This document shows positions 4,475 through 49,908 of a stretch of 64,000 nt of DNA, in pieces. The DNA is from Pelagovum sp. HNIBRBA483. GTDB taxonomy: Bacteria > Pseudomonadota > Alphaproteobacteria > Rhodobacterales > Rhodobacteraceae. The number at the start of each line of letters is the position of its first letter. The first letter of the stretch is position 1. The translations under genes were made by a program, and so were the position numbers. The stretch is taken from assembly GCF_040931995.1 (NCBI RefSeq), contig NZ_CP162412.1:2767001-2831000 (forward strand), read 5' to 3'. The notes below the pieces were generated by a model. It searched no databases, had not been told where the DNA came from, and saw only the letters and a program-made list of their open reading frames with translations.

Positions 4475-5559
4475 GCCGCGCCCTCCCCGAGGCTCACAAC
4501 CACCTCCGGCCGGATCACCGCGCCAACGGCAGGTACAGCACGCCCCTGCCCAAGAACCCGCGTCAGCGCATCATAGCGCCCGCCCGTCGCTACCGGCGGC
4601 AGGTCGGGCCTGTCAGCCGCATAGAAACCAAAGACAAAGCCGTCATAATACTCCATCGACGTGCGCCCGTAGCTGCCTTCGAACTCCAGCGTCGCCACGT
4701 CGATGCCACGCGCCGCCATAGCTTCAAGGCGCTCTTCCAAGCGATCCACCGCAGCGCCGATGGCAGGCAGATCCACCGCAATATCACGCAAGTTCGCCAG
4801 CACGTTTTGCGCCGTTTCCCTGAGCGAGAGGATCATATCGAGCAGAGAGATCTCCTCAGCAGAAATCGGGGACAGCGCCGTGTCCTGCCGCAGCGCATCG
4901 ATCCGCTTTTCCACCTCACCACGGCTCCGAAGGCCAAATTCCGCGCCAGAACCGGCGAACGGATCATCCGCGTTCAGCAGCGCTATACGGCTCGCAGGTG
5001 GAGCGATCTTTCCACCAAAGCGATCCAACAGCGCCCTGAACCTCCGCGGCCGCCACAAATGACGCATCAGCGCGGCTTTGCGGGCCTCGCTGGTTGCCAG
5101 CCCGCTCACAGCGGCCATCAAAATCCCGAAATCCCCCGTTGCCGCCCGCAGCGACAAACCGTCGAGCGCCTTGGCGATCACCGCGAACACTTCCGCATCC
5201 GCCTGCGCAGGGGCTTTACCGTCAAACACCTCGTAACCCACCTGCAAGAATTCATGCGGTCGACGCTCGTCGCTTTCCTGTTTGCGGAACACTTCGCCGC
5301 AATAGGTATAGCGGGCAGGCTCCGCCTGACTTTCCATATGCATCTGCACCACCGGCACGGTGAAATCGGGCCGCAGCATCAACTCGCCCGCCAGCGGATC
5401 AGCCGTCACATAGGCCCGCGCGCGGATGTCCTCACCATATAGGTCCAAGAGCGTATCGGCGGGCTGCAATATCGCCGCTTCCACCGGCAGCGCTCCCGCC
5501 GCCGCGAACTGCGCGGCGATCCGCGCCGCTTCCGCCCGTCCTGCCGCCGAAATGGTCAC
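4471..5559 (-). CDS. hisZ: ATP phosphoribosyltransferase regulatory subunit
   Basis: A catalytically dead histidyl-tRNA synthetase paralogue that forms a hetero-octamer with short HisG and mediates histidine feedback. The 362 residues show class II synthetase folds: [14 protein letters not shown] (about 63-76) and [29 protein letters not shown] (about 82-110, cited in parts), with the glycine-rich ATGGRYDAL near 325. The anticodon-binding domain is absent, as expected. Both ends overlap its neighbours by four bases (ATGA). Confidence 0.94.
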
Positions 5560-7187
5560 GATCCACCCTGCCCGTCGAGGATTTCCCGTACCTTCGCCAC
5601 CAGATCACCCCGCGCGACCTCGTATTGGCTCGGGCGGTCTTTCCATTCGTCAAGGCTGGCGCTCTTGGCGATTTCGGCACCAAGGATCAAATCCTTGATC
5701 TGCACCACGCCGGCATCCTTTTCCGCCGTGCCTTCGATCACCGCCACCGGCGCATTGCGCTTGTCGGCGTATTTCAACTGGTTGCCAAAGTTCTTCGGAT
5801 TGCCCAGATAGACCTCGGCCCGAATGCCCGCATTGCGCAGCTCGGCCACCATCGCCTGATAGTCGGCCATCCGGTCACGATCCATCACGGTAACAACCAC
5901 CGGCCCCTGCGCCGCATCCGCTCCGATCCGCCCCTTCGCCCGCAGCGCAGCAAGCAAACGGTCCACCCCGATGGATACACCCGTCGCAGGCACTTCCTGC
6001 CCCGTGAAGCGTTTCACCAGATCATCATAGCGCCCGCCACCAGCGACCGAGCCGAACTGCCGCGGGCGGCCCTTTTCATCGAGGATTTCAAAGGTCAGCT
6101 CCGCTTCGAACACAGGGCCGGTATAATAGCCAAGGCCGCGGACGACAGAGGGGTCGACCCGAATTCGATCTGCACCATAGCCTTGCGCCTGCAACAGTTC
6201 GAACATTTCGCGAAGTTCTTCGACGCCAGAGAACCCAATATCCGAAGACCCAACAATATCTCTCAGGTGGTTGAAGACGCGAGAGTTCCAGATCGAAAGT
6301 GCTTCTGGGTCAGATGAAACGGGATCGTCTTTGAACTCAGGCGAAACGCAATAGCGCGCGCGATCCAATTGCTCGCCCCGTCCTGCATTTCCCTCGTCGT
6401 ATGCTTGGCTTGCTTCTAAGGAAAGCTTGTTCTGAACGAAAGCAAAGTAGTTGATGAAGCCAAGAACTGGGGCCATTTCCGCATCGCTCAAGCCAACCCC
6501 GTCAATATACGCGCCCGAGGCATCAAGCCGCCCCTTGCCCAAAAGCTGGCGCACACCGTCCTCGCCCACCTTGTCGAACTTGTCGATGGTGCGCAGAACA
6601 GCATCCTTGCGATCCTGATCGTCGCCAAGGCCCATCGCCTCCAGCACGCCGTTCAGCACCTTGCGGTTATTGACACGGACCACATAATCTCCGCGCGGAA
6701 TGCCAACGGTTTCCAGCGTATCGCTGAGCATCGCGCAAATCTCGGCGTCAGCAGCGACGCTCGGCGCGCCAACGGTATCTGCATCGCATTGATAGAACTG
6801 CCGAAACCGCCCCGGCCCCGGCTTTTCGTTGCGCCAGACAGGCCCCATCGCATAGCGGCGGTAGGGCGTCGGCAGGTCGTTGCGGTACTGTGCATAAACC
6901 CGCGCCAGCGGCGCGGTCAGGTCATAGCGCAGCGCCACCCAGTCGCTGTCATCCTCCTGCCAAGCAAAGACACCCTCGTTCGGGCGGTCCACATCCGGCA
7001 GGAATTTCCCCAAAGCTTCGACAGTTTCCACCGCGCTCGATTCCAGCGCATCGAAGCCGTAGCGATGATACACGCCCGCAATCTGTTGCAGCATCTCGGC
7101 GCGCTCTGTCACCTCAGCGCCAAAATAATCGCGAAAGCCCTTTGGCGTAATCGCCTTGGGCCGGGGCTGTTTCTTCTGCTTTGCCAT
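5556..7187 (-). CDS. hisS: Histidyl-tRNA synthetase, alphaproteobacterial type, enlarged
   Basis: Charges tRNA-His. Motif 2 reads [13 protein letters not shown] (about 119-131), the form known for alphaproteobacterial HisRS that charge a tRNA-His lacking the extra G-1. The HisA box [11 protein letters not shown] and motif 3 GGGRYDDL follow, then the anticodon domain from about 430 with [20 protein letters not shown]. The length is 543 residues, some 40 more than I expect for the group. The surplus lies in the insertion domain (about 240-335), where base composition and codon use shift to lower GC (nt about 6190-6470). The ATG has GAGGT upstream. Confidence 0.94.
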
Positions 7188-7299
7188 CGGAACCTCAGGT
7201 CTTGGTCGCGCCAGCCTTTACCCTGCATGGCGATGCGGGGCAACGGGCGATGCCGCTGATTCCGCTTGTGGAAAGGGCAAAACTGGTTATCTCAGGATC

Positions 7300-7503
7300 A
7301 TGACCGATATTACCGCCCTCGAAGAACGGATCGCCCACCTCACCCGCATGGTCGAAGACCTCTCCGACGAGGTTGCCCGCCAGGCTAAGGAACTGGCCAT
7401 TACCTATCGCCGTGTCGAGGTCTTGATGGAGCGCGAGGCTGAACGCGAGATCGCCGATTCCAGCTCCGTACCGCTCGCGGATCAGAAGCCCCCGCATTGG
7501 TAG
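7300..7503 (+). CDS. slyX: SlyX family protein
   Basis: A small coiled-coil protein of 67 residues. It begins MTDITALEERIAHLTRMVED and keeps the heptad pattern to about 50, ending in PPHW, the usual SlyX tail. No biochemical role is established for the family. The gene starts 112 bp from the divergent hisS and is followed 8 bp later by a secreted protein, so the two may be cotranscribed. Confidence 0.8.
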   Translation: MTDITALEERIAHLTRMVEDLSDEVARQAKELAITYRRVEVLMEREAEREIADSSSVPLADQKPPHW

Positions 7504-7511
7504 CGTACGTT

Positions 7512-8186
7512 ATGATCCGTCTGCGCCCCTTGCTGTTACTCTTTGCTGGCCTCGCCGCCACCCCGCTGACCGCCGAGCCGCAGAGCTTTAACTTCAAGGG
7601 TTTCGGCGCGGATGTCGGGCGCATGACCCTCAATATCGCAGCCGATGGCGCACATTGGCTCGACTCTCAAACCGACAACATGCCCTTCGGCTTCCTCAAT
7701 GGAACCTATGTCGCGCGAACGGATTTGCAGCGTGGCGTCGGCAATCGCAGTTTCCTTGCGGACAGGATCGCCGCAGATGGCGATACCCGCTACTACCGTT
7801 TGGCCTTTTCGGGCGACACTGTCACCGAAACCGTGATCAAACCCGCCGCCGACCTGACCGAGATGAGCGATATTACACGCATCGATCGCCCGGTTGCCTC
7901 GCCGCTCGAAGCACTTGTGTCGCTGTTCGACCTCTCCCGCTGCGGCGAAACGCGGTCCTTCTACGATGGTCGCCGGATCGTCGACATCACCCTCTCACCA
8001 CCCGAGCCTGAAGGTGAAAACAGCGTCTGCAAAGGCCGCTATGAAATCGTCGCAGGGCCGGGGCATGGTGGAATCGTCGGCCTGAAAGACCTGCCACTGA
8101 CGCTCACATTCGATGGTGAAGGCACGCTCCAGCGGATCGCCACGCGGCTCCTGTTCTTCCGCGTCGCAGCTGAGCGCGTCGAGTGA
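7512..8186 (+). CDS. Secreted protein, DUF3108/DUF6134-like
   Basis: A 224-residue protein with an N-terminal signal peptide (MIRLRPLLLLFAGLAATPLTAEP, cited in part, cleavage likely after TAE). The start is set at the ATG 8 bp after slyX, rather than the in-frame ATG that overlaps it. The mature part is predicted beta-rich and resembles periplasmic lipocalin-like proteins annotated as DUF3108 or DUF6134; this is a loose resemblance. A cysteine pair (about 142 and 177) could form a disulfide. The TGA directly abuts the TCA of the convergent acyltransferase gene. Confidence 0.65.
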   Translation: MIRLRPLLLLFAGLAATPLTAEPQSFNFKGFGADVGRMTLNIAADGAHWLDSQTDNMPFGFLNGTYVARTDLQRGVGNRSFLADRIAADGDTRYYRLAFSGDTVTETVIKPAADLTEMSDITRIDRPVASPLEALVSLFDLSRCGETRSFYDGRRIVDITLSPPEPEGENSVCKGRYEIVAGPGHGGIVGLKDLPLTLTFDGEGTLQRIATRLLFFRVAAERVE

Positions 8187-9155
8187 TCAGCCGCCCTGCG
8201 AGGGCGACGGCGATGGCACAGCACCCGCATAGCCGCGCCGCCGTTCAAGCGCCGGATCAAGCGGTGTTTTAGAGACTCGCAGCAAACCCTCCAAGGCAAA
8301 GCCTTCAGGCGGCAGGTTCAGCGTCGCTGTCTGCAAATGCTTGATCGCATCATCAGGATTGCGCGGCAACGACTCAGATGAGATCGGCGCCCCGATGGTG
8401 ACTTTGAAGGGTTCTTTGCCCTTGTTCAGCAGTTCGTAAAACAGCGTGATGTCGCGCAAGGTTGGGTGCAAAAAGTCAAAAAGATAGAACAACCACGAGT
8501 TCTTCGCCTGCACATTAACCGGCACCACCGGCACCTTGTATTTGCGCGCGATTGTCGCGGCTCCTGCCATCCATTCCCGCTCGTGCAGCCACCGGCCACG
8601 GCGCTTGGCAATCCGGCCAGAGGGGAAAATCACGCACAGCGCATTCGCATCATACGCGCTCTTATAGGCTTCGAGCGTCTTGCGCATCGCCGACATGCTG
8701 CGCTTCTGGGTACGCCACTCGACCGGAATAACGATCTGCTCAAACTGCGGCAGAACGCGATTAATGTCTCCATTGGCAAAATAACGCACATCCTTGCGCA
8801 CCTTGCCGAACACATGTTCGAGCACGATCCCGTCACCGATGCCGGTAGGGTGGTTCGCAACGATCAGCACCGGCCCGTCTTGGGGCAGGTTCTCCAACCC
8901 CGAAATCTCGACCTTCCGCGCGATCAGTTCTTCCAGTTCGCGCATGATTCCGTCTAGCGGCAGATCCTTGTAGCGGTTTCCCCGCTCAAGCGTCCGGTCG
9001 TAATCCAGCAGCAGCTCTAGGCTCCGCTTGATCACGCCGACATACCACTTGCCATTGTACAGCCACGGAGCGCGCTCCTTGATCAGCGTATCGACACGTT
9101 CTTTCAAGTCAGACCCCGATGTGGTGCGTTGCTTCGCGCTCTCTCTACCCTGCAT
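8187..9155 (-). CDS. Lysophospholipid acyltransferase-family protein (PlsC-like)
   Basis: A likely membrane-associated acyltransferase for phospholipid or related lipid acylation. The catalytic motif is NHPTGIGDG (about 105-113), a version of the NHx4D box, followed by the acceptor-site block FPSGRIAKRR (about 180-189) and VPVVPVNV. About 322 residues from the ATG at 9153-9155; in-frame TTG and GTG codons 12-15 bases upstream are also possible, since AGAGGG sits too close to this ATG. The substrate cannot be told. It is followed by no obvious partner. Confidence 0.78.
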   Translation of the reverse strand: MQGRESAKQRTTSGSDLKERVDTLIKERAPWLYNGKWYVGVIKRSLELLLDYDRTLERGNRYKDLPLDGIMRELEELIARKVEISGLENLPQDGPVLIVANHPTGIGDGIVLEHVFGKVRKDVRYFANGDINRVLPQFEQIVIPVEWRTQKRSMSAMRKTLEAYKSAYDANALCVIFPSGRIAKRRGRWLHEREWMAGAATIARKYKVPVVPVNVQAKNSWLFYLFDFLHPTLRDITLFYELLNKGKEPFKVTIGAPISSESLPRNPDDAIKHLQTATLNLPPEGFALEGLLRVSKTPLDPALERRRGYAGAVPSPSPSQGG

Positions 9156-9227
9156 CCCTCTAAACACCAAGTGCGCAGAGCGGCTTTTCGCCGTTTATCA
9201 GGGGTTTTTACATGTTTGACACAAAAC

Positions 9228-10835
9228 TCAGAACCAGCCCAACCGGCGTTCCCAGTGCAGCGCCACGCCAAAATCAGCGCTCCCGCGCGCCAGAACCGAG
9301 CCGATCCCCTCGCGCCCTGCCGCATTGGTGGCAAAGGCTTCGACGCTTAGCGGGGTGCCCGCCAGATCATGCCGCACGCCCACGGCCCAAACATCGCCAT
9401 GCGCAGGGCCAGTGTAGCTGTACTCGCCCATTACCACCGTCCGCTCGCCCAGCGCCACCGAAGCGCCAAGACCAATTCCGTAGCGCCCGCCATAACCTGT
9501 TGCGCCATAGCGCGGGTTGAGCACCAGTTGCCCCCAGTCGCCAAACTCCCGCGCCGCCATCGCCTCGCCAAAGATCACGCCGGTGGTGGGCTTGCGGATG
9601 TCACGCCCCACCAACGTGCGAAAGCCAAGGCTCACAGGATGCCCATAGCGCTGATCCATCGCCTGCCAGCGCCCACCGATCTGGTAGCGCAGATCCTCCA
9701 CCGCCGCAGATCGGAAACCCGTCGCGGCATCAATCGCGTATTGCTCCAGCGTCACATCATACTGGATATCAGGATCGGTGGTAAAATACCCCGACACCGC
9801 ATAATTCCCGCTCGCGGTATAGGATGCCCGCACCCGCAGTTGATCGGGCGCCAAAGTTTGTGGGCTGGTAATGGTGATCCCATCGGCAAAGCCCTCCGGC
9901 CGCAGCGCCGCCACGCGGTCTTCGACAAACGGCGCATAGCGGGGGATCGGCTCATCACGGCGGCTTGGCACATAGCTCAGCACCAACCCGAAGGAAGGGT
10001 TTTGCTTGTCCGCGAAAAACAGCATGTCATCGGTGATCGGCGAGACGCCAAAGCCATTGGTCGCATAAAGGTCCAGCGCCATTTGCGGCGTCAGCGCCCA
10101 GCGCCCGCCCAGCGACCACAGCATCTGCGGATCGGTTGCGCTCGGCGCATCAATCGCGGCCGATCCCAGCTCACGCCGCACACCCTTCGCGCCCGCATGG
10201 AGGAAGAGCCTGTCCACCGGCTGCCAGATCACGCTTGCGCCAGCGGTCAGCCGTTTGCCAAATCCTGTTTCGCCCTGCTGGGTATCTGGCAGGAAGGTCA
10301 CGCCCGCATCCGCGCCCAGCGCCCAACGCTCGGTCAGCCGCCATGTCACCGGCAGGCTCACCCCGAACCCATAGGTCTGTCGCCCCTTGGCGGTGTTATC
10401 CGGCCCGCCCGCGCGATAGAAACCGGCCTCCGCAGCCACCCGCAGCGCCGCTGACAACGTTTCACTCTCGGTCAGCGGAAATTTCAAATCCCCCCCAAAC
10501 GAGAAATAGGTGATGTTGGTCATCCGCCCGTTGATCGGCGTATTGGGCGGGTCGTCGAATACCTGAATATTCCACGCCGCTTGTGGCTGGTTGCCATGCC
10601 GCCAACGCGCGCCGCCAAAATAGGTCTGCTTGCCAGTGCCGGAGGTCGTGTTCGGCGCCGTCTGCTGCGACCCAACATAACCCTTGAACGTATCGGGCGG
10701 CAGCAACACGCCGGTATCCACACCCGCCAAATGCTCGGGGAACTCCTCAAAAGGGAAATTCGGATCGGCAAAGGCGATCCCGCTTGCGGTAACGATCCCC
10801 GCAACGGCTGCGGCAACAAAGCGAATGAAAGGCAT
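9228..10835 (-). CDS. Outer-membrane beta-barrel protein, YjbH-like
   Basis: A 535-residue exported protein. The start is set at MPFIRFVAAAVAGIVTASG, which gives a proper signal peptide (cleavage likely after AFA); the longer frame adds 20 residues in front of it. The mature sequence is rich in alternating aromatic/polar strands and ends in WF, the aromatic end typical of barrel proteins recognised by BamA. The internal GDLKFPLT and GGRWALTPQMALDLY stretches resemble YjbH/exopolysaccharide outer-membrane proteins of Rhodobacterales, but no polysaccharide genes are nearby, so the function is uncertain. Confidence 0.65.
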   Translation of the reverse strand: MPFIRFVAAAVAGIVTASGIAFADPNFPFEEFPEHLAGVDTGVLLPPDTFKGYVGSQQTAPNTTSGTGKQTYFGGARWRHGNQPQAAWNIQVFDDPPNTPINGRMTNITYFSFGGDLKFPLTESETLSAALRVAAEAGFYRAGGPDNTAKGRQTYGFGVSLPVTWRLTERWALGADAGVTFLPDTQQGETGFGKRLTAGASVIWQPVDRLFLHAGAKGVRRELGSAAIDAPSATDPQMLWSLGGRWALTPQMALDLYATNGFGVSPITDDMLFFADKQNPSFGLVLSYVPSRRDEPIPRYAPFVEDRVAALRPEGFADGITITSPQTLAPDQLRVRASYTASGNYAVSGYFTTDPDIQYDVTLEQYAIDAATGFRSAAVEDLRYQIGGRWQAMDQRYGHPVSLGFRTLVGRDIRKPTTGVIFGEAMAAREFGDWGQLVLNPRYGATGYGGRYGIGLGASVALGERTVVMGEYSYTGPAHGDVWAVGVRHDLAGTPLSVEAFATNAAGREGIGSVLARGSADFGVALHWERRLGWF

Positions 10836-39975: not shown

Positions 39976-40061
39976 CCACCCTCTCTTCAAGGCGCAGCCC
40001 CACGCACCTTGAAGCCCGCCTGAGTGCGATTTCGATAACGGTTAGTCAGGAAAGAAATTTG

Positions 40062-40106
40062 TGGCGATCCCGCGAGGACTCGAACCCCGAACCTGCTGAT
40101 TAGAAG
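40062..40106 (-). repeat. attL: displaced 3' end of tRNA-Arg gene
   Basis: 45 bases identical to 49832-49876, the 3' half of the tRNA-Arg gene including its encoded CCA and reaching into the anticodon loop. Beyond 40106 the match stops at once. It is the copy left on the chromosome side when the island integrated. Confidence 0.93.
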
Positions 40107-40138: not shown

Positions 40139-40233
40139 GAATTCGCCAAACTTTCATAAATCATTGTCTTCATTGAGTTTTTCTTGACGGCCATTGCGCC
40201 CATAGTTCATGGATTCCCCTAGATTTCGCTCGC

Positions 40234-40255
40234 TAGTGCTTCCGTAGTGCTTCCG
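40234..40255 (+). repeat. Tandem motif B at left end
   Basis: TAGTGCTTCCG is repeated twice without spacer just upstream of the integrase gene. The same 11-mer is at 49744-49754 near the right end, followed there by a degenerate second copy. Candidate integrase arm sites. Confidence 0.5.
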
Positions 40256-40280
40256 TGGAGCGTTTGGCTCGGAGGGGAAA

Positions 40281-41477
40281 ATGCCGACACTGACGAAAAC
40301 TTTTGTGGAAAAACTTGAGGTCAAATCCGCCGACTACATCGTATTCGACACCGTGCTTCCACGGTTCGAAATTCGGGTCATGCCCTCAGGCGTGAAATCC
40401 TATCTCGTTCAGTACCGGAACGGTGGTCGCAACCGTCGCCTCACCCTCGGTCGGCACGGTGTCCTCACCGCTGACGACGCCCGCAGGCTGGCGCAGAAAC
40501 GGTTGGGTGAGGTCGCTCAAGGCGAAGACCCCTCCGCCATCCGCAACGAAAAGCATCGCGCCCCGACGATGACCATTCTATGCCGTCGGTTTCTCACCGA
40601 TCACGTCGCATTGCATTGCAAGCCGACAACGGCTCGAAACTACACCAGCCAAATTGAAAAAATCATCATTCCCGCATTCGGCGCATTCAAAGTGGCCGAC
40701 ATGCGCCGCACCGATATTGCCGAGTTGCATCACAAGTTGAGGGATACCCCCTATCAGGCCAACCGTATGCTCGCGATGTTATCGAAGATGTTTAACATCG
40801 CAGAGCTCTGGGGAATGCGCCCAGACGGGTCCAACCCTTGCCGCCTTATTCCCCGCTATAAGGAACGCAAATGCGAACGCTATCTCAATGAAGTCGAGCT
40901 CACACGGCTGGGGCGAACGCTTGCGACGGTTGAAGCAGACGGTTCGGAAACCGTCTACGTTACGGCTGCATTCAAACTACTGCTCATGACGGGCTGTCGC
41001 CGTGGCGAAATCCAAACTTTGAAATGGGAGTATGTCACCGCGACCCACCTTGTCCTTCCAGACAGTAAAACCGGCGCCCGCCGCATTCCCCTGCCCTCAG
41101 ACGCCCATCAGGTGCTTGCCGCCCTCCCCCGCGATCCTAGCAACCCTTACGTGATCCAAGGGCGCTTTCCAGGCTCACACATCACTGATCTCGAACGCCC
41201 ATGGCGGCGGATCAGAGAGCTTGCCCAGTTGGAAGATGTTCGCATCCATGACCTTCGGCATACCTATGCCTCTATCGCAGCAATGAACGGGATTGATCTT
41301 CTGACCCTTGGCAAGATTTTGGGCCATACGAATTTCCAAACGACACAACGCTACGCACATTTGGCAGACGAAAGGGTGAGACAGGCCGCAGATAAGGTAT
41401 CGGGACTGCTATCAAGCGCGATTCATCAGCCGCAGCCGCAACTACCGCAAAGCGGGCATCTACGCGTTGTTCGGTAA
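40281..41477 (+). CDS. int: Tyrosine-type site-specific integrase
   Basis: Catalyses integration and, with an excisionase, excision of the island. 398 residues. An N-terminal DUF4102-like DNA-binding part (about 1-90: YLVQYRNGGRNRRLTLGRHG), a core-binding domain (about 95-180), and the catalytic domain with TGCRRGEIQTLKW (Arg I), HDLRHTYAS (His-x-x-Arg), LGHTNFQTTQRYAHL (His and the nucleophile Tyr). GGAGG lies five bases before the ATG. It reads inward from attL. Confidence 0.95.
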   Translation: MPTLTKTFVEKLEVKSADYIVFDTVLPRFEIRVMPSGVKSYLVQYRNGGRNRRLTLGRHGVLTADDARRLAQKRLGEVAQGEDPSAIRNEKHRAPTMTILCRRFLTDHVALHCKPTTARNYTSQIEKIIIPAFGAFKVADMRRTDIAELHHKLRDTPYQANRMLAMLSKMFNIAELWGMRPDGSNPCRLIPRYKERKCERYLNEVELTRLGRTLATVEADGSETVYVTAAFKLLLMTGCRRGEIQTLKWEYVTATHLVLPDSKTGARRIPLPSDAHQVLAALPRDPSNPYVIQGRFPGSHITDLERPWRRIRELAQLEDVRIHDLRHTYASIAAMNGIDLLTLGKILGHTNFQTTQRYAHLADERVRQAADKVSGLLSSAIHQPQPQLPQSGHLRVVR

Positions 41478-42550: not shown

Positions 42551-42784
42551 ATGCCTATCGAATTCGTTAATCAGCTCGCAAATGAGCACTCTAATCGACT
42601 GCTGAACGAAGCAGACGCAGCCGACATCCTTTGTTATTCCGTTCGCGCCCTTCAGAATTGGCGTTATCGGGGAGGTGGGCCGCGCTTTGTAAAAGTGTCC
42701 GCGCGGTCGGTTCGATACCGATACAGCGACCTAATCGCATGGATTGAAGAGCGCACCGTCGCTCATACCAGCGAACTGATCTGA
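42551..42784 (+). CDS. AlpA/MerR-like helix-turn-helix protein (probable excisionase/regulator)
   Basis: A 77-residue protein with a winged HTH: LLNEADAADILCYSVRALQNW (cited in part, about 17-37), then RYRGGGPRFVKVSARSVRYRYSDLIAWIEERT. This is the HTH_17 layout of excisionases and AlpA-type regulators. GGGGG lies upstream of the ATG. The 190-base AT-rich gap before it probably holds its promoter. In many islands such a gene controls excision. Confidence 0.85.
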   Translation: MPIEFVNQLANEHSNRLLNEADAADILCYSVRALQNWRYRGGGPRFVKVSARSVRYRYSDLIAWIEERTVAHTSELI

Positions 42785-42922: not shown

Positions 42923-43138
42923 ATGGCTAATACGCCTGTATTCAAATTCAAAATCGGCCTGATCACGGCCACCATCTGGGAAAATGATGGGTTCTACTCC
43001 GTCGATCTCACCCGTTCCTACAAGACCAACGAAGGCGAATGGCGCTCAACGAGCTCCTATTCCCACAACGATCTCCTGAACGTCGCGAAATGTGCAGAAC
43101 GGGCAGAAAATTGGATCGCGAGAAAGGCATCTTCGTGA
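42923..43138 (+). CDS. Small conserved integrative-element protein
   Basis: A 71-residue protein starting MANTPVFKFKIGLITATIWE after AAAGGA. The pattern KIGLITATIWEN, then YSVDLTRSYK and WRSTSSYSHNDLLNVAKCAE is one I know from small genes next to AlpA and Rep genes on integrative elements. It is compact, beta-rich at the front with a C-terminal helix. Possibly a nucleic-acid-binding accessory of replication; function unknown. Confidence 0.72.
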   Translation: MANTPVFKFKIGLITATIWENDGFYSVDLTRSYKTNEGEWRSTSSYSHNDLLNVAKCAERAENWIARKASS

Positions 43139-43152
43139 AGCCGGGTTGCGCA

Positions 43153-43171
43153 GCCGGGCGTCCAGCCCGGC
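43153..43171. repeat. GC-rich hairpin upstream of the Rep gene
   Basis: GCCGGGC (43153-43159) and GCCCGGC (43165-43171) form a perfect stem with a five-base loop, followed by an A-rich stretch. It lies 160 bases before the Rep start and could be part of a replication origin; no nick site is identified. Confidence 0.35.
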
Positions 43172-43329
43172 CCCAAAATAAAAGCTGCCCCGCCGGAGGC
43201 ATATCGGAGGGCGCAACCGCGCCTGACGATATCCCCACCCCTCCCAAAGAGCACGGCACCCGCCGCAAGAGGGGGGTGATAGTAGCACCCCCCTCTAGAA
43301 ATACCGTTCCCACACAGGAGAGCCCGCAA

Positions 43330-44481
43330 ATGCGCGTCGTTCACAAAGGCTTTGACACCATTACTCTATCCATTCAGGCAAACATTCCCCCAAAGCTCTT
43401 TGAGGCGCTGGAAGCAGAGCGCGAAAGTGCCGAGGATGAGCGCACCCCTCGCCCTTTCACCTATGGCGGCGCGGATTTTGATCTGATGCCCTATGGCGGC
43501 AATGGGTATCGCTTCATCCTCAAAGGCGGTTTTCTGGACGCTCAATGGTTCTTCAAGAAACCGCACGCAAAAGACCCTTGGGGAATTAGGATCAACATCG
43601 GATCACTCCTGCTCGCAACGCAGGGGCTTGGCTACGCCCGCGCCTACATCGACAAAACCCTGACCCGCCTCGGCGTCCGATATGCCGCGCATCAAGTCAG
43701 CATCGCGAGAGCGGATTTTTGCATTGATGTGCACGCACCTGACTTCGAGCTCATTCCAGAAAACATCGTCACCCATAGCCGCTCCAACCGCGCCGATCAC
43801 CAAAGCGCGGTCGAAGATATCCGCAGCAACGGTCGATCAGGTCGGTTCACCTCCGTGACCGTGGGCAAGATGCCGGGGCGGCAGGTCATCATCTACGACA
43901 AGCGCCGCGAAGTGATCGACAAAAAGAAACCCATCTGGTGGGAGATTTGGAACGCAAACCTCAGGGCAGAAAACGAACCCGAGCTAACACCCGACGACCG
44001 CTCAAATAGCCAAATTTGGCGGATCGAATGCCGTGCCGGAAAAGACCTCCTGAAAGAGCGCTGGCAAATCCGCGAATGGGCAGAATTTGATGGCCTGATT
44101 GGTGACGTGATGGCAGAGGCGACCTCAAAAATCCGCTACTGCACACCCGACCCTTCAGACAGCAACCGAGCGCGTTGGCCCAACCACCCGCTCTGGGATT
44201 TGGTTGTGCGGGAGATGAAAGGCGACCTAGAAGAAATGCGGAGCTTTGTTGAGCCATCGCTGATCAAAGACGTGCATAGAAATGAGCACATCCAGTTGAT
44301 CTTGGGTCAAGTCGTTGGCGGGGTAACAACCGTAGCGGCGCTTGAGGATCAGAAAAAATCCGACCTGAAGGATTACTTCAAGGCATTCGGTGAACGGTTG
44401 CAACAGGAATTCAGCAGAGCGCCCGACCGCATTCAACGGAAGTTCGGAGAGGCGAAGGCGCGGTATAGGTTTGTGGAGTAG
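43330..44481 (+). CDS. Replication initiation (Rep_trans-like) protein
   Basis: A 383-residue protein set to start at MRVVHKGFDTITLSI, with AGGAGA nine bases before the ATG; the frame is open further upstream but without resemblance. The sections NIGSLLLATQGLGYARAYID, VSIARADFCIDVHAPDF (about 120-136) and GRQVIIYDKRREV (about 185-197) match the replication initiation factor family of rolling-circle plasmids and integrative elements. YDKRREV may carry the nicking tyrosine or be a structural strand; catalytic residues are not certain. It implies autonomous replication of the excised island. Confidence 0.72.
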   Translation: MRVVHKGFDTITLSIQANIPPKLFEALEAERESAEDERTPRPFTYGGADFDLMPYGGNGYRFILKGGFLDAQWFFKKPHAKDPWGIRINIGSLLLATQGLGYARAYIDKTLTRLGVRYAAHQVSIARADFCIDVHAPDFELIPENIVTHSRSNRADHQSAVEDIRSNGRSGRFTSVTVGKMPGRQVIIYDKRREVIDKKKPIWWEIWNANLRAENEPELTPDDRSNSQIWRIECRAGKDLLKERWQIREWAEFDGLIGDVMAEATSKIRYCTPDPSDSNRARWPNHPLWDLVVREMKGDLEEMRSFVEPSLIKDVHRNEHIQLILGQVVGGVTTVAALEDQKKSDLKDYFKAFGERLQQEFSRAPDRIQRKFGEAKARYRFVE

Positions 44482-44749
44482 GGCGGGAAGCAGACCTTCG
44501 CTGCGTTCTGGACGAATGGCAGCGATGCGGAACGAAGCGTCAACTCGCGGCAGTTAAGTTTGCGGCAACCATTCTCTTTTAGCCTTGCTTCTTAGTGATC
44601 CTGACCCCTAGCTAAGTTGCCCTAAAGCGAGCTTGGCCTTGCACTGACCCTAAGCGCAGGCAATACACACTCGACCCTGTGCGCGCATGCTATACAAATT
44701 GGCACGAGTGGCGCATAGTGGGCAGGAATACAACAACTTAGGGGCAGTA

Positions 44750-45829
44750 ATGGCACCGAACCTTAAGACACTGCCAGTGTCCCAACTAAATTTTGACCCC
44801 GACAATCCTCGACTACCCGACCGTATCGATGGGACAGATACGGACGCGGTGACAGATTTTTTTCTGTTGGAATGCAATCTGATCGAGTTGATGATGTCTA
44901 TCGCCGAACAAGGTTATTTTCACGGCGAACCGCTTCTAGTTGTCGAGGATGCTGGAAGTGCGACCCATACCGTAGTGGAAGGCAACCGACGCCTTGCATC
45001 ATTGAAGATACTGACCCAAGAAATCGCGCCTCGGTCGATGGAAAAGGCCGTCGCGAAAATTCTAGCTGAAGCCAAAGAAAAACCTGATCGTGTTCCTTGC
45101 TTAGTGTTTGGAGCACGGCAAGATGTCCTCAAGTACTTAGGTTATCGGCACATTACCGGAATCAAGGAGTGGGATGCACTCGCTAAGGCCCGTTACCTGG
45201 CCCAGCTTCGAAATAACATCGCCGCAGCAACGCACGATGACGCACACAGGATTTTGGCGAAGGAGATTGGCAGCAAATCCAATGCGGTTGCAAAGATCCT
45301 CACTGGTTACAATCTGCTTCAATATGCCCACGATGAGGGAATTCTGCGTGAACTCAAACTCGACGCAGAAGACGTTCCTTTTTCGCTCCTGACAACGGCT
45401 ATCGGCTGGTCGGGAATTGCCAACTTTATCGGGTTAGATGGAAGTGGCGATGTTGAGATTGCCAACGTAAAGAAGGAAGAAACTAGGGAGCTCTTTCTTT
45501 GGGCGTTCCATAAAATCGATGGATACAAAACAAGAATTGGAGACTCGAGAAATTTCAAAATATTTGCTCGTATTGTCGAGTTCCCTGCAGCCCTAGAAGC
45601 TCTTAGGCGAGGAGCTACGCTAGAGGAAGCTGATATCCTTGCCGATGGCCCACTTCAGGCGATCCGAACAAATATCCTTAAGGCGATCACCGCGATTGAA
45701 CACTCCCAGTCCTCAATTTCCATGGCAGACGGTTTGACGGCTGATGATTTGGCCGAGGCGACAAAACTGAGAAAACTGGCGTCTGCGCTTGAAGGCTCGA
45801 TAAAAGCCAACATTGATAATGAAGATTGA
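44750..45829 (+). CDS. ParB/Srx-like N-terminal domain protein
   Basis: A 359-residue protein starting MAPNLKTLPVSQLNFD after GGGGC. The ParB-type fold is at about 8-95: NFDPDNPRLP, then LMMSIAEQGYFHGEPLLVVE and VVEGNRRLASLKIL, where EGNRR stands at the ParB arginine box. A middle part EWDALAKARYLAQLRN and EIGSKSNAVAKILTGYNLLQ resembles the ParB helix-turn-helix. Unlike plasmid ParB it has no ParA partner nearby. The next gene begins nine bases after its stop and looks like a nuclease, so the two are probably a single module. Confidence 0.78.
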   Translation: MAPNLKTLPVSQLNFDPDNPRLPDRIDGTDTDAVTDFFLLECNLIELMMSIAEQGYFHGEPLLVVEDAGSATHTVVEGNRRLASLKILTQEIAPRSMEKAVAKILAEAKEKPDRVPCLVFGARQDVLKYLGYRHITGIKEWDALAKARYLAQLRNNIAAATHDDAHRILAKEIGSKSNAVAKILTGYNLLQYAHDEGILRELKLDAEDVPFSLLTTAIGWSGIANFIGLDGSGDVEIANVKKEETRELFLWAFHKIDGYKTRIGDSRNFKIFARIVEFPAALEALRRGATLEEADILADGPLQAIRTNILKAITAIEHSQSSISMADGLTADDLAEATKLRKLASALEGSIKANIDNED

Positions 45830-45838
45830 GAGAGCCTA

Positions 45839-46750
45839 ATGACGATTAACTTGGATCGTCCGCGCGATCACGACACGCACACTCTGGCCGATTTTTTGGA
45901 ATTGCTTTGTCTCGTCAGCTTAGACCGACAAGTTAGCACTGATACTTTGAGGGATTATATCGAAGATAACCGTGGAACGCACAGTTATCAGCTCAGTGAT
46001 GAACATCTGGAAGACGTTCTTGGACAGGTCCGCTGGCGGGTTGAAGCACTTGCCGCTTGGTATCCATTCTCGTTGACCAACCACGGGCGAGTTGTGGAAG
46101 CCCCAGATGACATCACCCCCAATCAATCAAAGTATGTTAGTCTGCTGATATGTGCTAATCTTCCGTTTTTCGCACAGAACGAGCGTCAAGCATTGACCGA
46201 TTTCTTCGAACGCCTTTCAGAGAATGTCCTACGCGAGCTTTGGCCGGTTGCGGGCACCGCTATGACCGTCGGCAAAAACACGACGGCCTTAACGGGCTCG
46301 AAGGCTGCGAAGCTGAATACCTTAGGAAAGCTCATTGGGGCGAATCCTAACTTGAAGGACACAGACTTTCGCGACCGCGACAAAGGTGACGGGGGCATTG
46401 ACCTTGCTGCGTACATTGAACTCGATAGGTTTGAGCACCAAAACACCATTTCGGCGCTTGGGCAGTGCGCTTGTTCCAGATCAGAGTGGTCAGCAAAACA
46501 TAGCGAGATCACACACACCCGCCTAAGAACACTGCTGCCCCACACTGCTTTGTGGATGGAGATGCTGTTCACGCCAATTCTATTCCGCGAGAACTCTGGC
46601 AAATGGGCAGTGCCTGGGGACGTTCCAGCAATAACGCTAGTGGACAGGCTGCGCTTGATTGGATCGCTGATAAGATCAGAGCCCGCTGGCCATCCTGAAT
46701 TGCCTGATATTGTTCAAACGCTGCTGGATTTTCGCTTGGATGTGGTGTGA
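45839..46750 (+). CDS. Putative PD-(D/E)XK-like nuclease, partner of ParB-like protein
   Basis: A 303-residue protein not assigned to a named family. Its middle has FRDRDKGDGGIDLAAYIELD (about 177-196), then ISALGQCACSRSEWSAKHSEI (about 203-223, cited in part). The order G-D-G-x-I-D, then a strand with QC, then a Lys about ten residues later, resembles PD-(D/E)XK nucleases with a Q in the ExK position. The N-terminal 100 residues are helical. It is in the same direction as the ParB-like gene with nine bases between, and convergent with the restriction genes. The nuclease call is inference. Confidence 0.55.
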   Translation: MTINLDRPRDHDTHTLADFLELLCLVSLDRQVSTDTLRDYIEDNRGTHSYQLSDEHLEDVLGQVRWRVEALAAWYPFSLTNHGRVVEAPDDITPNQSKYVSLLICANLPFFAQNERQALTDFFERLSENVLRELWPVAGTAMTVGKNTTALTGSKAAKLNTLGKLIGANPNLKDTDFRDRDKGDGGIDLAAYIELDRFEHQNTISALGQCACSRSEWSAKHSEITHTRLRTLLPHTALWMEMLFTPILFRENSGKWAVPGDVPAITLVDRLRLIGSLIRSEPAGHPELPDIVQTLLDFRLDVV

Positions 46751-46756
46751 TCAGCA

Positions 46757-47674
46757 CTACTCGCCGGTAGTGCTTCCGAGCGCCCGCAGGATCGCATCCC
46801 GGTAGACGTTCTCTACAGGCAGTGTCACATTGTTAAAGGCTTCCTGCACCTTGTAGACTGTCGTCGAATGATTGAGCGTGTTTTTCAACGGAACCAAACT
46901 TTCGGGGGCAGGCTTGTCCGGCATGTCATAGTCGTACACGGCGAAGGTGATCGACGCGGGCTGAAGCGCATATCGGATCAGGCTTTCCTGACCACCTAGT
47001 CGTTCCATGATCCGTTCGAAAACCGGCGCAGGACACACAAAGAACAGACCACTGCGGCACAGTTCCTCACGTTGCAGAATCTGCCCTTTATAAATCAACT
47101 GCGGCAGGATGCGTTTGGCGACATTTTCCCAATTCAGCCCGGCCGTTGTTTTCTCAATCGAGCGATCTGTCTTGAGTGCATCATAGCCTGGGCGATATGT
47201 GCCGGTCGTATCAATCGTCTGCACCTCAACCGCTACAAACTCGATCAATTCGCCCTGACTGCTGAGTTTCGCCAGTACCCAATCGACAAAGTAGCCGCCC
47301 TTTTTCGACTTTTGCGGCAGGCGGAGTTCACCGCCCCAGCCCTTGCCGAAAACGGCGACACATTCTTCCTGATGATCAATCGAGTGCTTTACGGCATCGC
47401 GCCCCGCAACCAATTTTAAGTTGGAGCCAAATACCCGGTCGGCAATATCGGACAAAATACGGTAGTCGTCGGCATATAGGCGGATCGGACAGCAGATCAC
47501 CGGCTCGCTGGTGATGGGTTTGATCGCGCAAACGCCCGACACCACCCCATCGTTAAAGCTTTTCTGACAAGTATCCCCGCTGATTGGGCAGGTTTCCGTA
47601 TCCGCAGCACGCTTCGCAACGTCGGACGCATCATCTGAACGATACCCAAAGAACTCGAAAATTGTTGCGGCCAT
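46757..47674 (-). CDS. NotI-family type II restriction endonuclease
   Basis: A 305-residue protein. The start MAATIFEFFGYRSDD follows the methyltransferase stop by four bases; ten more in-frame codons upstream overlap that gene. Cysteines C29, C36, C49 and C61/62 match the metal-binding Cys set of NotI. EVQ in FVAVEVQTIDTTGTY (about 148), with an upstream Asp in VDWVL, fits the PD-(D/E)xQ-type catalytic site of that family. Its target may be GC-rich like NotI's but cannot be read from sequence. It forms a restriction-modification pair with the gene upstream. Confidence 0.82.
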   Translation of the reverse strand: MAATIFEFFGYRSDDASDVAKRAADTETCPISGDTCQKSFNDGVVSGVCAIKPITSEPVICCPIRLYADDYRILSDIADRVFGSNLKLVAGRDAVKHSIDHQEECVAVFGKGWGGELRLPQKSKKGGYFVDWVLAKLSSQGELIEFVAVEVQTIDTTGTYRPGYDALKTDRSIEKTTAGLNWENVAKRILPQLIYKGQILQREELCRSGLFFVCPAPVFERIMERLGGQESLIRYALQPASITFAVYDYDMPDKPAPESLVPLKNTLNHSTTVYKVQEAFNNVTLPVENVYRDAILRALGSTTGE

Positions 47675-47678
47675 GTTG

Positions 47679-48890
47679 TTACGAAACCTTCCGCGTGCGT
47701 CCACTCAATTCCTCAAGGACACCGCGGATCGACCGCCCAATCGCAGCGGCCAATAGCGACGGAACAGCATTTCCAACCTGCTCGTACTGTTCGACGCGCG
47801 AACCAACGAAGCGGTAGCTATCTGGGAATGTCTGAATTCGCGCCGCTTCTCTGACAGTGAAGCAACGATCTTGCTCATAGTGGAAATAGGCGCCCCAATG
47901 GGGATCGCATTTCGTCAGAATGGTCGATGCAAGGCCATCTGGCGCAACTCGACCGTATCGCTTGGTGTGATCAGAACGGCGCGCCCGTCTCATACCTTTC
48001 GGCAGCAGATCCTCGGGGATGTCTGTCCAGTTTCCCCCAGGCGGGATGAACGACATGCGCTTGATGTTAATTTCTCCGAGGCGCGGGGCCTCGTGGTTCA
48101 GGACACCCTTACTCCCGTTTCTCATGGCAGCCTGAAAATCATTCTGCGGCTTGGTCTTGTAGTCTTTGCGCTTCGCTCCGGTTTCCCCGTTCAAGAGGAC
48201 GGGAAGATCATCAATCGCGTCACGCACACTCACGAAAGAGGGCAGCTCCAGGTTCTTTGGAAGAGCAACAATGTTCTTGCCCTCGAAGTTCGAGGTGAAA
48301 TTCACTCGTAGAGGCGCATTACGAACTGGTTCGGGGAAGGCGCTAAGAGGATCTGCCTCATCCCCACGGATACCGATGATCACAGTCCGCCACCGGGTTT
48401 GGGGCACGCCGAAATGCGGCGCGTAGAGGATTTTCACATCCGCTCTGTATCCGTGCTGACCTAATGCCTGCAAGATTGCCTGCAAGGTGCCACCACCTTC
48501 GAACGAGACAAGACCGGGGACATTTTCGATCAGGACCGCCTTTGGCTCGAACTCATCCACAAAGCGCAAGAATTCGAGAAAGAGGCTGTTCCGTTCATCG
48601 TCCAACGACCGTTTGGGCGCATTGATCGAGAAGCCCTGACAGGGCGGGCCACCGGCCACAAGATCCAGCTCCCCCTTTTGCAGTCCCAACCGACGACGTA
48701 CATCACCAGAATCAACCAAGCGAATATCTCTCGACTCAACAATGGTCTCAGGGTGGTTCAGAGCATAAGTCTCGGCATGACGAGCAACGATTTCGTTTGC
48801 ATATAAAGACTTGAAGCCAGAAACGCGCAGCCCTTCAGAAAGCCCACCGGCACCTGAAAACAAGTCAATAGATGTAAATTGGGCTGCCAA
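47679..48890 (-). CDS. DNA cytosine-C5 methyltransferase
   Basis: A 403-residue m5C methyltransferase. Motif I is FTSIDLFSGAGGLSEGL (about 5-21), motif IV is GGPPCQGFSIN with the catalytic Cys (about 80-90), motif VI ENVPGL (about 121), and motif X QVGNAVPSLLA near the C-terminus. The target-recognition region lies at about 245-325. It protects host DNA from the NotI-family nuclease encoded just downstream. Both genes read toward the ParB/nuclease cassette. Confidence 0.95.
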   Translation of the reverse strand: MAAQFTSIDLFSGAGGLSEGLRVSGFKSLYANEIVARHAETYALNHPETIVESRDIRLVDSGDVRRRLGLQKGELDLVAGGPPCQGFSINAPKRSLDDERNSLFLEFLRFVDEFEPKAVLIENVPGLVSFEGGGTLQAILQALGQHGYRADVKILYAPHFGVPQTRWRTVIIGIRGDEADPLSAFPEPVRNAPLRVNFTSNFEGKNIVALPKNLELPSFVSVRDAIDDLPVLLNGETGAKRKDYKTKPQNDFQAAMRNGSKGVLNHEAPRLGEINIKRMSFIPPGGNWTDIPEDLLPKGMRRARRSDHTKRYGRVAPDGLASTILTKCDPHWGAYFHYEQDRCFTVREAARIQTFPDSYRFVGSRVEQYEQVGNAVPSLLAAAIGRSIRGVLEELSGRTRKVS

Positions 48891-49691: not shown

Positions 49692-49754
49692 CACTTGCGC
49701 CAAGCCCCCTATTGCCAATCCGCAACAGGCGACTTTCTTCCGCTAGTGCTTCCG
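49692..49754 (+). repeat. Shared end motifs A and B, right copies
   Basis: CACTTGCGCCA (49692-49702) and TAGTGCTTCCG (49744-49754) repeat the motifs near attL in the same orientation and order. Their place 78-140 bases from the right core repeat fits attP arm sites. Confidence 0.45.
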
Positions 49755-49831
49755 TGGTGCTTACATGCAAAAAATGGATTGCATTCTTGGATTCACGCAG
49801 CCGCACAAGTATTTGAATTTAATGAAAAATT

Positions 49832-49876
49832 TGGCGATCCCGCGAGGACTCGAACCCCGAACCTGCTGATTAGAAG
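49832..49876 (-). repeat. attR core, 3' half of tRNA-Arg restored by the island
   Basis: Identical to 40062-40106. The last shared base lies in the anticodon loop, a common crossover region for tyrosine integrases in tRNA genes. Sequence beyond it (49877-49908) is the chromosomal 5' half of the tRNA. Confidence 0.92.
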
Positions 49877-49908
49877 TCAGCTGCTCTATCCAGTTGAGCT
49901 ACGGGACC
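49832..49908 (-). tRNA. tRNA-Arg (anticodon UCU)
   Basis: Folds fully: acceptor GGTCCCG/CGGGATC with discriminator G and encoded CCA, D arm GCTC...GAGC, anticodon stem GCTGA/TCAGC with loop CTTCTAA (anticodon TCT, reads AGA), T arm CGGGG/CCTCG. 77 bases. Its 3' half comes from the island. Confidence 0.95.

Follow-up and report, generated by a model that had tools for sequence, protein, structure and literature searches.

A ParB-type protein and a PD-(D/E)XK-type nuclease as the probable restriction subunits of a methyltransferase-linked system in phages and mobile islands

Background

PD-lambda-5, which Vassallo et al. 2022 (PMC9519451) reported to act against phages, was the closest validated relative that we found for two adjacent genes, here called A and B, of Pelagovum sp. 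HNIBRBA483 (Rhodobacteraceae). They lie in a 64,000-nucleotide stretch of contig NZ_CP162412.1 (positions 2,767,001 to 2,831,000), hereafter the window, and encode a ParB-type protein and a predicted PD-(D/E)XK-type nuclease, respectively. Proteins with a ParB fold are described as binding CTP, ATP or GTP and as including numerous orphans (Kaljevic et al., PMC12704722). We conclude that A and B are probably two restriction subunits of a restriction-modification (R-M)-like system, with a DNA methyltransferase as its third part. The set is apparently an unnamed variant of ParB-plus-methyltransferase defence, widespread in phages and mobile islands; we found no description of it among the titles and abstract openings listed from the open-licence PubMed Central (PMC) literature, though supplementary tables may contain it as an untested cluster.

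The likeness to PD-lambda-5 lies in A and in the pairing of a ParB-type protein with a DNA methyltransferase. The N-terminal 150 residues of A are homologous to the ParB-fold N-terminus of the PADLOC profile PD-Lambda-5_A (9.7e-22, residues 5-152 on profile positions 4-161 of 466; A of phage Wphi, 2.5e-24), and the D12 methyltransferases of two A-B loci (L069 and L100) matched PD-Lambda-5_B at 7.9e-121 and 6.7e-90. In contrast, no best stretch of window A passed profile position 211, A is longer by about 200 residues, and the PD-(D/E)XK-type B, a protein in its own right, did not match the C-terminal half of PD-Lambda-5_A (B profile against four proteins, best E 0.13), so that by this test of membership the window set falls outside PD-lambda-5. 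Most A-B loci also differ in that the enzyme is of the C5 class (62 of the 93 loci in which a methyltransferase lies within 150 bp); the window has a C5 enzyme and no adjacent PD-Lambda-5_B methyltransferase such as L069 and L100 carry. The window set may work in a similar way to PD-lambda-5. In Vibrio phage ValB1MD-2 (L076, 3132-5568) we observed PD-Lambda-5_A split into two adjacent genes ahead of its methyltransferase.

A second PADLOC profile, PDC-M38A, covers most of A (Wphi A residues 41-327 on profile positions 58-342, 6.5e-25), but is 715 positions long and matched none of the Bs in two alignments (39 and 10 proteins). A first-pass annotation, made from the sequence of the window alone, had assigned the pair to no named system. 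This did not hold for A, which matched PD-Lambda-5_A, but it held for B: window B gave weak PADLOC matches alone (REase_MTase_IIG 0.022, mREase_II 0.048), and at E up to 0.01 the 39 main-clade Bs yielded one match to mREase_II (5.7e-5) and one to LmuA (0.0092) and the 10 Bs of the second alignment, in which window B was again included, yielded none.

In SspE, a ParB-superfamily (DUF262) domain is described as coupling GTP hydrolysis to a nuclease (PMC13251355), and this serves as a working analogy in which a nucleotide-hydrolysing ParB-like domain licenses a nuclease. SspE differs in that its nuclease is an HNH domain within the same protein, in contrast to the separate PD-(D/E)XK-type B, and in that it responds to modified (phosphorothioate) DNA. 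GmrSD is likewise a DUF262 ParB-superfamily GTPase with an HNH nuclease, and the motif in SspE and GmrSD is DGQQR in place of the EGNRR of A.

Results and Discussion

Predicted folds and active sites of A and B

Searched alone against Pfam, NCBIfam and PDB sequences, neither window protein returned anything useful, and we therefore turned to alignments and predicted folds. The AlphaFold2 model of A, built from a 35-row alignment, had a mean predicted local distance difference test score (pLDDT) of 91.6 and matched KorB (8qa9; Z 10.5, 200 residues aligned, root-mean-square deviation 5.3). ParB and Noc matched as well, with the matches spanning the nucleotide domain and the helix-turn-helix (HTH), and SspE (6jiv) was present among the structure matches at Z 4.7. 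A thus has the ParB/Srx NTPase fold, comprising a ParB N-domain and an HTH with conserved NPR and EGNRR motifs (Table 1). The ParB_N family was matched in 10 of 35 A homologues, window A not among them. The first-pass annotation had noted the lack of a ParA partner in the window. A motif scan of the 4 kb around the A-B block picked up a ParA-like open reading frame (ORF) in just one (L194) of 119 non-redundant loci, and the nearby ParA gene of a ParABS system is therefore not a feature of these loci. We propose that A would bind and hydrolyse nucleotide and clamp DNA.

B, modelled from 39 rows (pLDDT 91.1), has a winged helix at its N-terminus and a nuclease-type domain at its C-terminus. MspJI was the sole Foldseek match to the latter at E <= 0.001, and structure comparison of B with MspJI gave Z 7.0, a value within the range reached by unrelated folds; AspBHI also matched. 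Most other structure matches over this part were to what we take to be PD-(D/E)XK nucleases. The B profile compared with PDB sequences matched MspJI alone (E 0.095), over the GDGG...Q stretch, with a D-to-Q spacing of 21 in both proteins. The structure matches to the N-terminal part were winged helices; a modified-base sensor such as the SRA-like modified-cytosine domain of MspJI was not among the matches listed, though an unlisted fold may also match.

The two motifs on which the nuclease call had first been based, GDGGID and GQCACS...K (residues 208-220), are present in B as claimed, and the model and the MspJI match bear out the PD-(D/E)XK-type fold. B shares that fold and the D...Q arrangement with MspJI and Mrr-type nucleases, but its lysine lies at Q+11 rather than Q+2 in 110 of 116 Bs. 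An ordinary Q-x-K lysine occurs in the Bs of five loci (L073, L212, L214, L219 and L250), of which four lack K220 (Fisher p 3.5e-6, for rows that are not independent, the five forming one clade of the A tree and reflecting one or few events). The B of L219 carries both lysines and that of L143 neither. The simplest reading of alignment and model is that B is a PD-(D/E)XK nuclease, having the core fold and a D...(D/E/Q)...K active site with the proposed catalytic lysine shifted to the next helix.

Pairing of A with B and linkage to DNA methyltransferases

Relatives were gathered from genome and viral collections via B, from genome samples, and in two separate sets found via A, which kept the best 80 of 115 and the best 80 of 106 relatives. 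Short loci, duplicate stretches, PD-lambda-5 loci (L075-L077), R-M loci (L072, L095 and L096), L101 and L102 were set aside before the tally, and reduction at 90% identity gave 119 non-redundant A loci. Linkage was counted in the 103 with at least 1 kb on each side, 16 with less than 1 kb on one side being excluded; L074 supplies two of the 103, and the window is represented by its near copy L007. Adjacency was tallied with a wide overlap limit, and L027 and L187 were counted as having B.

B adjoined A in 102 of these 103 loci, and the genes overlapped or were at most 20 bp apart in 114 of 115 pairs (longest ORF per gene). A DNA methyltransferase lay within 150 bp in 93 of the 103 (C5 in 62, D12 in 25 and N6/N4 beta-class in six), whereas the same models gave a background of 19 methyltransferases across the 822.5 kb of these loci that lay beyond 1.5 kb of the pair. 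Counts were similar for the first A-found set (B 29/29, methyltransferase 28/29), the second (31/32 for each) and all other sources (B 42/42, methyltransferase 34/42). Pfam agreed with the assigned class in five examples (D12 in L069, L070 and L100; N6_N4_Mtase in L071 and L099). The linkage was retained through varying gene orders, namely A-B followed by a convergent methyltransferase gene (M), A-B-M and M-A-B. In four further loci (L007, L094, L125 and L221) the methyltransferase lay 0.86-1.06 kb away with one intervening gene.

The recurrence of the pair, which the first-pass annotation had named as a supporting sign, is thus clear. The 102 of 103 adjacency, together with ratios of nonsynonymous to synonymous substitution (dN/dS) of 0.22 for A and 0.20 for B between the window and L007, a sign of purifying selection, places the pairing beyond chance (values for phage pairs were mostly saturated and unused). 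The same annotation had taken the pair for a stand-alone module, which the survey contradicts: given the near-constant coupling to a methyltransferase, the neighbouring R-M genes of the window are probably involved.

The locus counted as without B was L221, in which the ORF between A and a D12 methyltransferase (7068-8129) was matched by neither the B profile nor Pfam; by eye, its active-site residues look degenerate. On one phage contig (L074, MT835579.1), two different A-B pairs were seen at 4659-6852 and 7398-9498, and the second seems to share a same-strand run with genes for a Z1-domain protein and a C5-type methyltransferase. Among 198 genomes, A was matched in nine, with B present in six (G000, G735, G833, G751, G682 and G818) and not shown in G805 (L101), G699 (L102) and G707, where the match is interrupted by a stop.

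Phage and E. coli carriers

Phage Wphi (gp98-gp96-mth), Peduovirus 12474II and Pseudomonas phage D14A carry A-B with a convergent C5 methyltransferase directly behind. Ten records of the phage collection carry a methyltransferase of the Wphi type (at least 60% identity), the same 10 that window B matched, several of them duplicates of one phage. Every one of the 11 records in which the match covered at least 79% of A also had B; the remaining six of 17 A-matching records covered 37-41% of A without a B match, and the two that were inspected (L075 and L076) are PD-lambda-5 loci. The Wphi block was matched in 139 of 5426 E. coli genomes, in 103 of them over at least 80% of the block. As side observations, IS5-like and IS3-like insertion sequence annotations interrupt beside or within the block in E. 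coli records H45-H48, and an IS200-like stretch was seen by eye in the A slot of locus L017 (7480-8696).

Co-evolution of A and B and exchange of the methyltransferase

For 32 non-redundant complete triads, mostly from B-found sets, the correlation of protein distances was far higher for A with B (r 0.96) than for A or B with the methyltransferase (0.27 and 0.24). The phages Wphi and 12474II illustrate this, being 98% identical in the methyltransferase but 33% in A and 20% in B. We also mapped the partner, defined as a methyltransferase within 1.2 kb, on a tree of 116 A proteins. The tree splits into an amino-methyltransferase clade of 34 rows (D12 27, beta 6, none 1) and a C5 clade of 82 rows (C5 72, none 10), with 12 changes of partner type compared to 40.5 in shuffles. 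We take the co-evolution of A with B and the split of the tree to mean that methyltransferases of one chemistry can replace each other, while A-B follows the chemistry.

Of the 72 C5 partners, 60 are at least 55% identical to the HaeIII-like methyltransferases (Mth) of Wphi and D14A, three are of the window type and nine are others. The alignment of Wphi Mth with M.HaeIII spans residues 4-307 (1.6e-48), and that with M.HhaI residues 5-175 alone; because the resemblance to M.HaeIII extends so far beyond that to M.HhaI, the target core in systems with a HaeIII-like partner is probably GGCC.

The four-gene set of the window

In the window, A and B are followed by genes for a NotI-family endonuclease (R) and a C5 methyltransferase (M), the R-M pair that the first-pass annotation had placed alongside (Table 1). 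Their block is shared exactly with L007 (4671 columns, 94.2% identity) and the flanks differ; dN/dS was 0.20 for R and 0.07 for M. The four-gene set is also present in L111 and L094. L111, the sister of the window in the A tree (support 94), has A-B, then a convergent methyltransferase of the window type, which is 66% identical to the L094 enzyme, and a NotI-family endonuclease (NotI 1.2e-107). L094 belongs to a distant A lineage (A 27% identical); its A, B and R genes overlap in a single operon, and its M, convergent with them, is of the window type (46% identical to window M). The NotI-like R was found beside A-B solely in the window/L007 block, L094 and L111, other restriction endonuclease families not having been searched systematically.

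The R-M pair is thus a direct neighbour of A-B, in one cassette with it, but differs in being present also without A-B in stretches L072, L095 and L096. R was found in two of 289 and five of 198 genomes (the window genome in both), six genomes in all, with A-B in three. Beside these, L096 holds a window-type NotI-like R-M with a Mrr_cat protein in place of A-B (5988-9583) and an ORF that reads by eye like a Vsr endonuclease. In L125, a 273-aa plus-strand ORF without a Pfam match (8044-8865), between B and a convergent C5 methyltransferase, occupies the slot of the NotI-like endonuclease.

The NotI site, which we take to be GCGGCCGC, includes GGCC. Window M aligns with M.HaeIII over residues 8-177 alone, and a GGCC-only target for window A-B was therefore left as a hint.

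Proposed mechanism and competing explanations

In the mechanism that we propose, A would be a ParB-type DNA clamp or switch, placed at its target by the HTH, whose state would be altered by nucleotide binding in the ParB/Srx domain. A would recruit or license B, a putative metal-dependent PD-(D/E)XK nuclease, which would cut DNA lacking the mark of the partner methyltransferase, and that methyltransferase, presumably cognate to A-B, would mark the carrier's own DNA as self. The mark would come from a HaeIII-like C5 enzyme in most relatives and from D12 or N6/N4 enzymes in others, and in the window it would most likely come from M and be shared with the NotI-like endonuclease. By recognising unmethylated sites in this way, the pair may serve in phage defence. 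What the computations themselves show are the folds, the conserved motifs, the joint evolution of A and B, the methyltransferase linkage and the purifying selection; nucleotide binding, discrimination of unmethylated sites, DNA cleavage and a role against phages are our inference. Genetic linkage of a nuclease to a methyltransferase, a feature of R-M, is what the survey found; in the window, R separates M from B.

A more ambitious form of the proposal, to which we would give an even chance, is that A-B represents a restriction engine of an unrecognised class, whose nucleotide-gated ParB-type clamp would read self and non-self and license a PD-(D/E)XK nuclease with a relocated catalytic lysine. 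Such an engine would have been fitted to C5, D12 and beta methyltransferases and, in two lineages (window/L111 and L094), to a NotI-type R-M as a four-gene, double-cutting system with one mark.

Several observations weigh against the R-M-like interpretation. The score of B against MspJI is not decisive alone, and MspJI, the structure nearest B, is a methylation-dependent enzyme. The hidden Markov models used to detect methyltransferases were partly built from the loci that they score. Six pairs (in L006, L010, L024 and L098, and both in L074) have no C5, D12 or beta enzyme within 1.2 kb; the L010 pair has a large N6_Mtase protein encoded 102 bp from it. No B was detected beside the A-like ORFs of L101 and L102, which are outside the 103 and by eye resemble PD-lambda-5 relatives, and L017, not among the 119, carries B and M without A. 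The window genome has two PF00145 matches, the second C5 enzyme being only distantly related, and no HaeIII-like methyltransferase was found among them, so that a window A-B cutting all unmethylated GGCC would attack self. The literature searched yielded no data on defence, cleavage or nucleotide binding by any A-B pair.

The alternative that survives best, unlikely as we judge it, is a modification-dependent (type IV-like) pair, in which A senses modified DNA as GmrS and SspE do, the MspJI-related B cuts the modified invader, and the methyltransferase nearby belongs to an independent R-M or acts as a decoy. The nuclease domain of methylation-dependent MspJI, the best fold match of B, and the further match to AspBHI point this way, as do weak matches to GmrSD_N in four of 35 A homologues (best 0.0012) and locus L024, where a GmrSD gene, A, B and a Mrr-type HARE-HTH nuclease form one same-strand run (5185-9748) and the whole 16.7-kb locus yielded no methyltransferase of the C5, D12 or beta class. 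However, the linkage in 93 of 103 loci, kept through rearrangement, would set a mark-making enzyme beside a nuclease that attacks the mark, and the N-terminal matches of B were to winged helices, without a modified-base sensor among those listed, though one may exist.

It is also doubtful that A-B is an abortive or guard module, of an addiction or PrrC-like kind, that fires upon loss or inhibition of its partner methyltransferase or R-M. PD-lambda-5 is described as a compacted prophage system of restriction-modification plus abortive infection (RM+Abi; PMC9519451), and a complete R-M does stand beside A-B in the window, L094 and L111, but such an R is confined to those loci and the L007 copy within the NotI-like family searched, in 93 of 103 loci the methyltransferase gene adjoins A-B without another gene in between, and the fold of B is of a DNase rather than an RNase type. 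Already disfavoured, and very improbable, is a third reading, by which A would be an orphan ParB serving partition or regulation and B an unrelated neighbour, associated through clustering in defence hotspots: A has the ParB fold and HTH, and in Wphi two small orfs separate the copy from gpA, in the P2 hotspot described between gpA and gpQ (PMC9122126), but the scarcity of ParA-like ORFs, the spacing of at most 20 bp and the A-B correlation of 0.96 all argue otherwise. We therefore set the type IV-only and partition readings below the R-M-like one.

The island and its other features

The A-B set sits in a 9.8-kb tRNA-Arg island with the integrase at the opposite end. The 56-bp attachment repeat, the tRNA-Arg and the tyrosine integrase bear out the integrated island of the first-pass annotation and, with it, a mobile, defence-type setting. 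Its description of the two genes was also accurate: A and the 303-residue B are on the same strand, nine bases apart, and are AT-richer than their flanks (GC 0.490 and 0.515, compared to 0.588 and 0.616). An upstream ATG at 44687 is an alternative start for A and would give 380 aa. A second direct repeat of 34 bp (82%), at 40224-40257 and 49734-49767, lies just internal to both attachment repeats and may represent integrase arm sites.

Table 1. Coordinates of the A-B-R-M cassette, its motifs and the surrounding island in the window
Feature	Position	Strand	Description
A	44750..45829	+	ParB/Srx-type fold, HTH and C-terminal helices, 359 aa
A NPR motif, residues 19-21	44804..44812	+	119/120 sequences; remaining sequence gapped there
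A EGNRR motif, residues 77-81, position of ParB P motif	44978..44992	+	119/120 sequences; remaining sequence gapped there
B	45839..46750	+	winged helix (about 7-110) and PD-(D/E)XK-type nuclease domain (about 112-290), 303 aa
B GDGGID, residues 183-188	46385..46402	+	D184 in 115/116, D188 in 116/116 sequences
B Q209...K220, relocated catalytic lysine proposed	46463..46498	+	Q209 116/116, K220 111/116
R, NotI-family type II endonuclease	46757..47704	-	315 aa; Pfam NotI 6.5e-10; PADLOC REase_II 1.2e-35; PDB NotI 2.3e-6
M, C5-cytosine DNA methyltransferase	47679..48890	-	403 aa; Pfam DNA_methylase 1.1e-66
A-B-R-M cassette, one block common to window and L007	44474..49137		single blastn alignment
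Left attachment repeat	40051..40106		56-bp direct repeat, copy of tRNA-Arg 3' end
Right attachment repeat	49821..49876		93% identical to 40051-40106; overlaps 3' end of tRNA-Arg
tRNA-Arg (tct), integration target	49832..49908	-	overlapped at 3' end by right repeat
Tyrosine integrase of island	40281..41477	+	Phage_integrase 5e-20, Arm-DNA-bind_3 2.6e-14
Small HTH_17 (AlpA/excisionase-like) protein	42551..42784	+	HTH_17 1.9e-8
Rep_trans-like ORF (weak)	43039..44481	+	part from 43294: Rep_trans 0.024, below cut-off

Implications

If the R-M-like reading is true, Wphi gp98 and gp96, as well as the PHROG families phrog_3694 and phrog_3984, which have no assigned function, would be the restriction half of an R-M-like system. 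The natural swaps, in which a near-identical methyltransferase accompanies a very different A-B and the reverse, would allow a direct test of target recognition. One group of orphan ParB-fold proteins would gain a partner and a probable job, and ParB-type clamps would gain a role in immunity.

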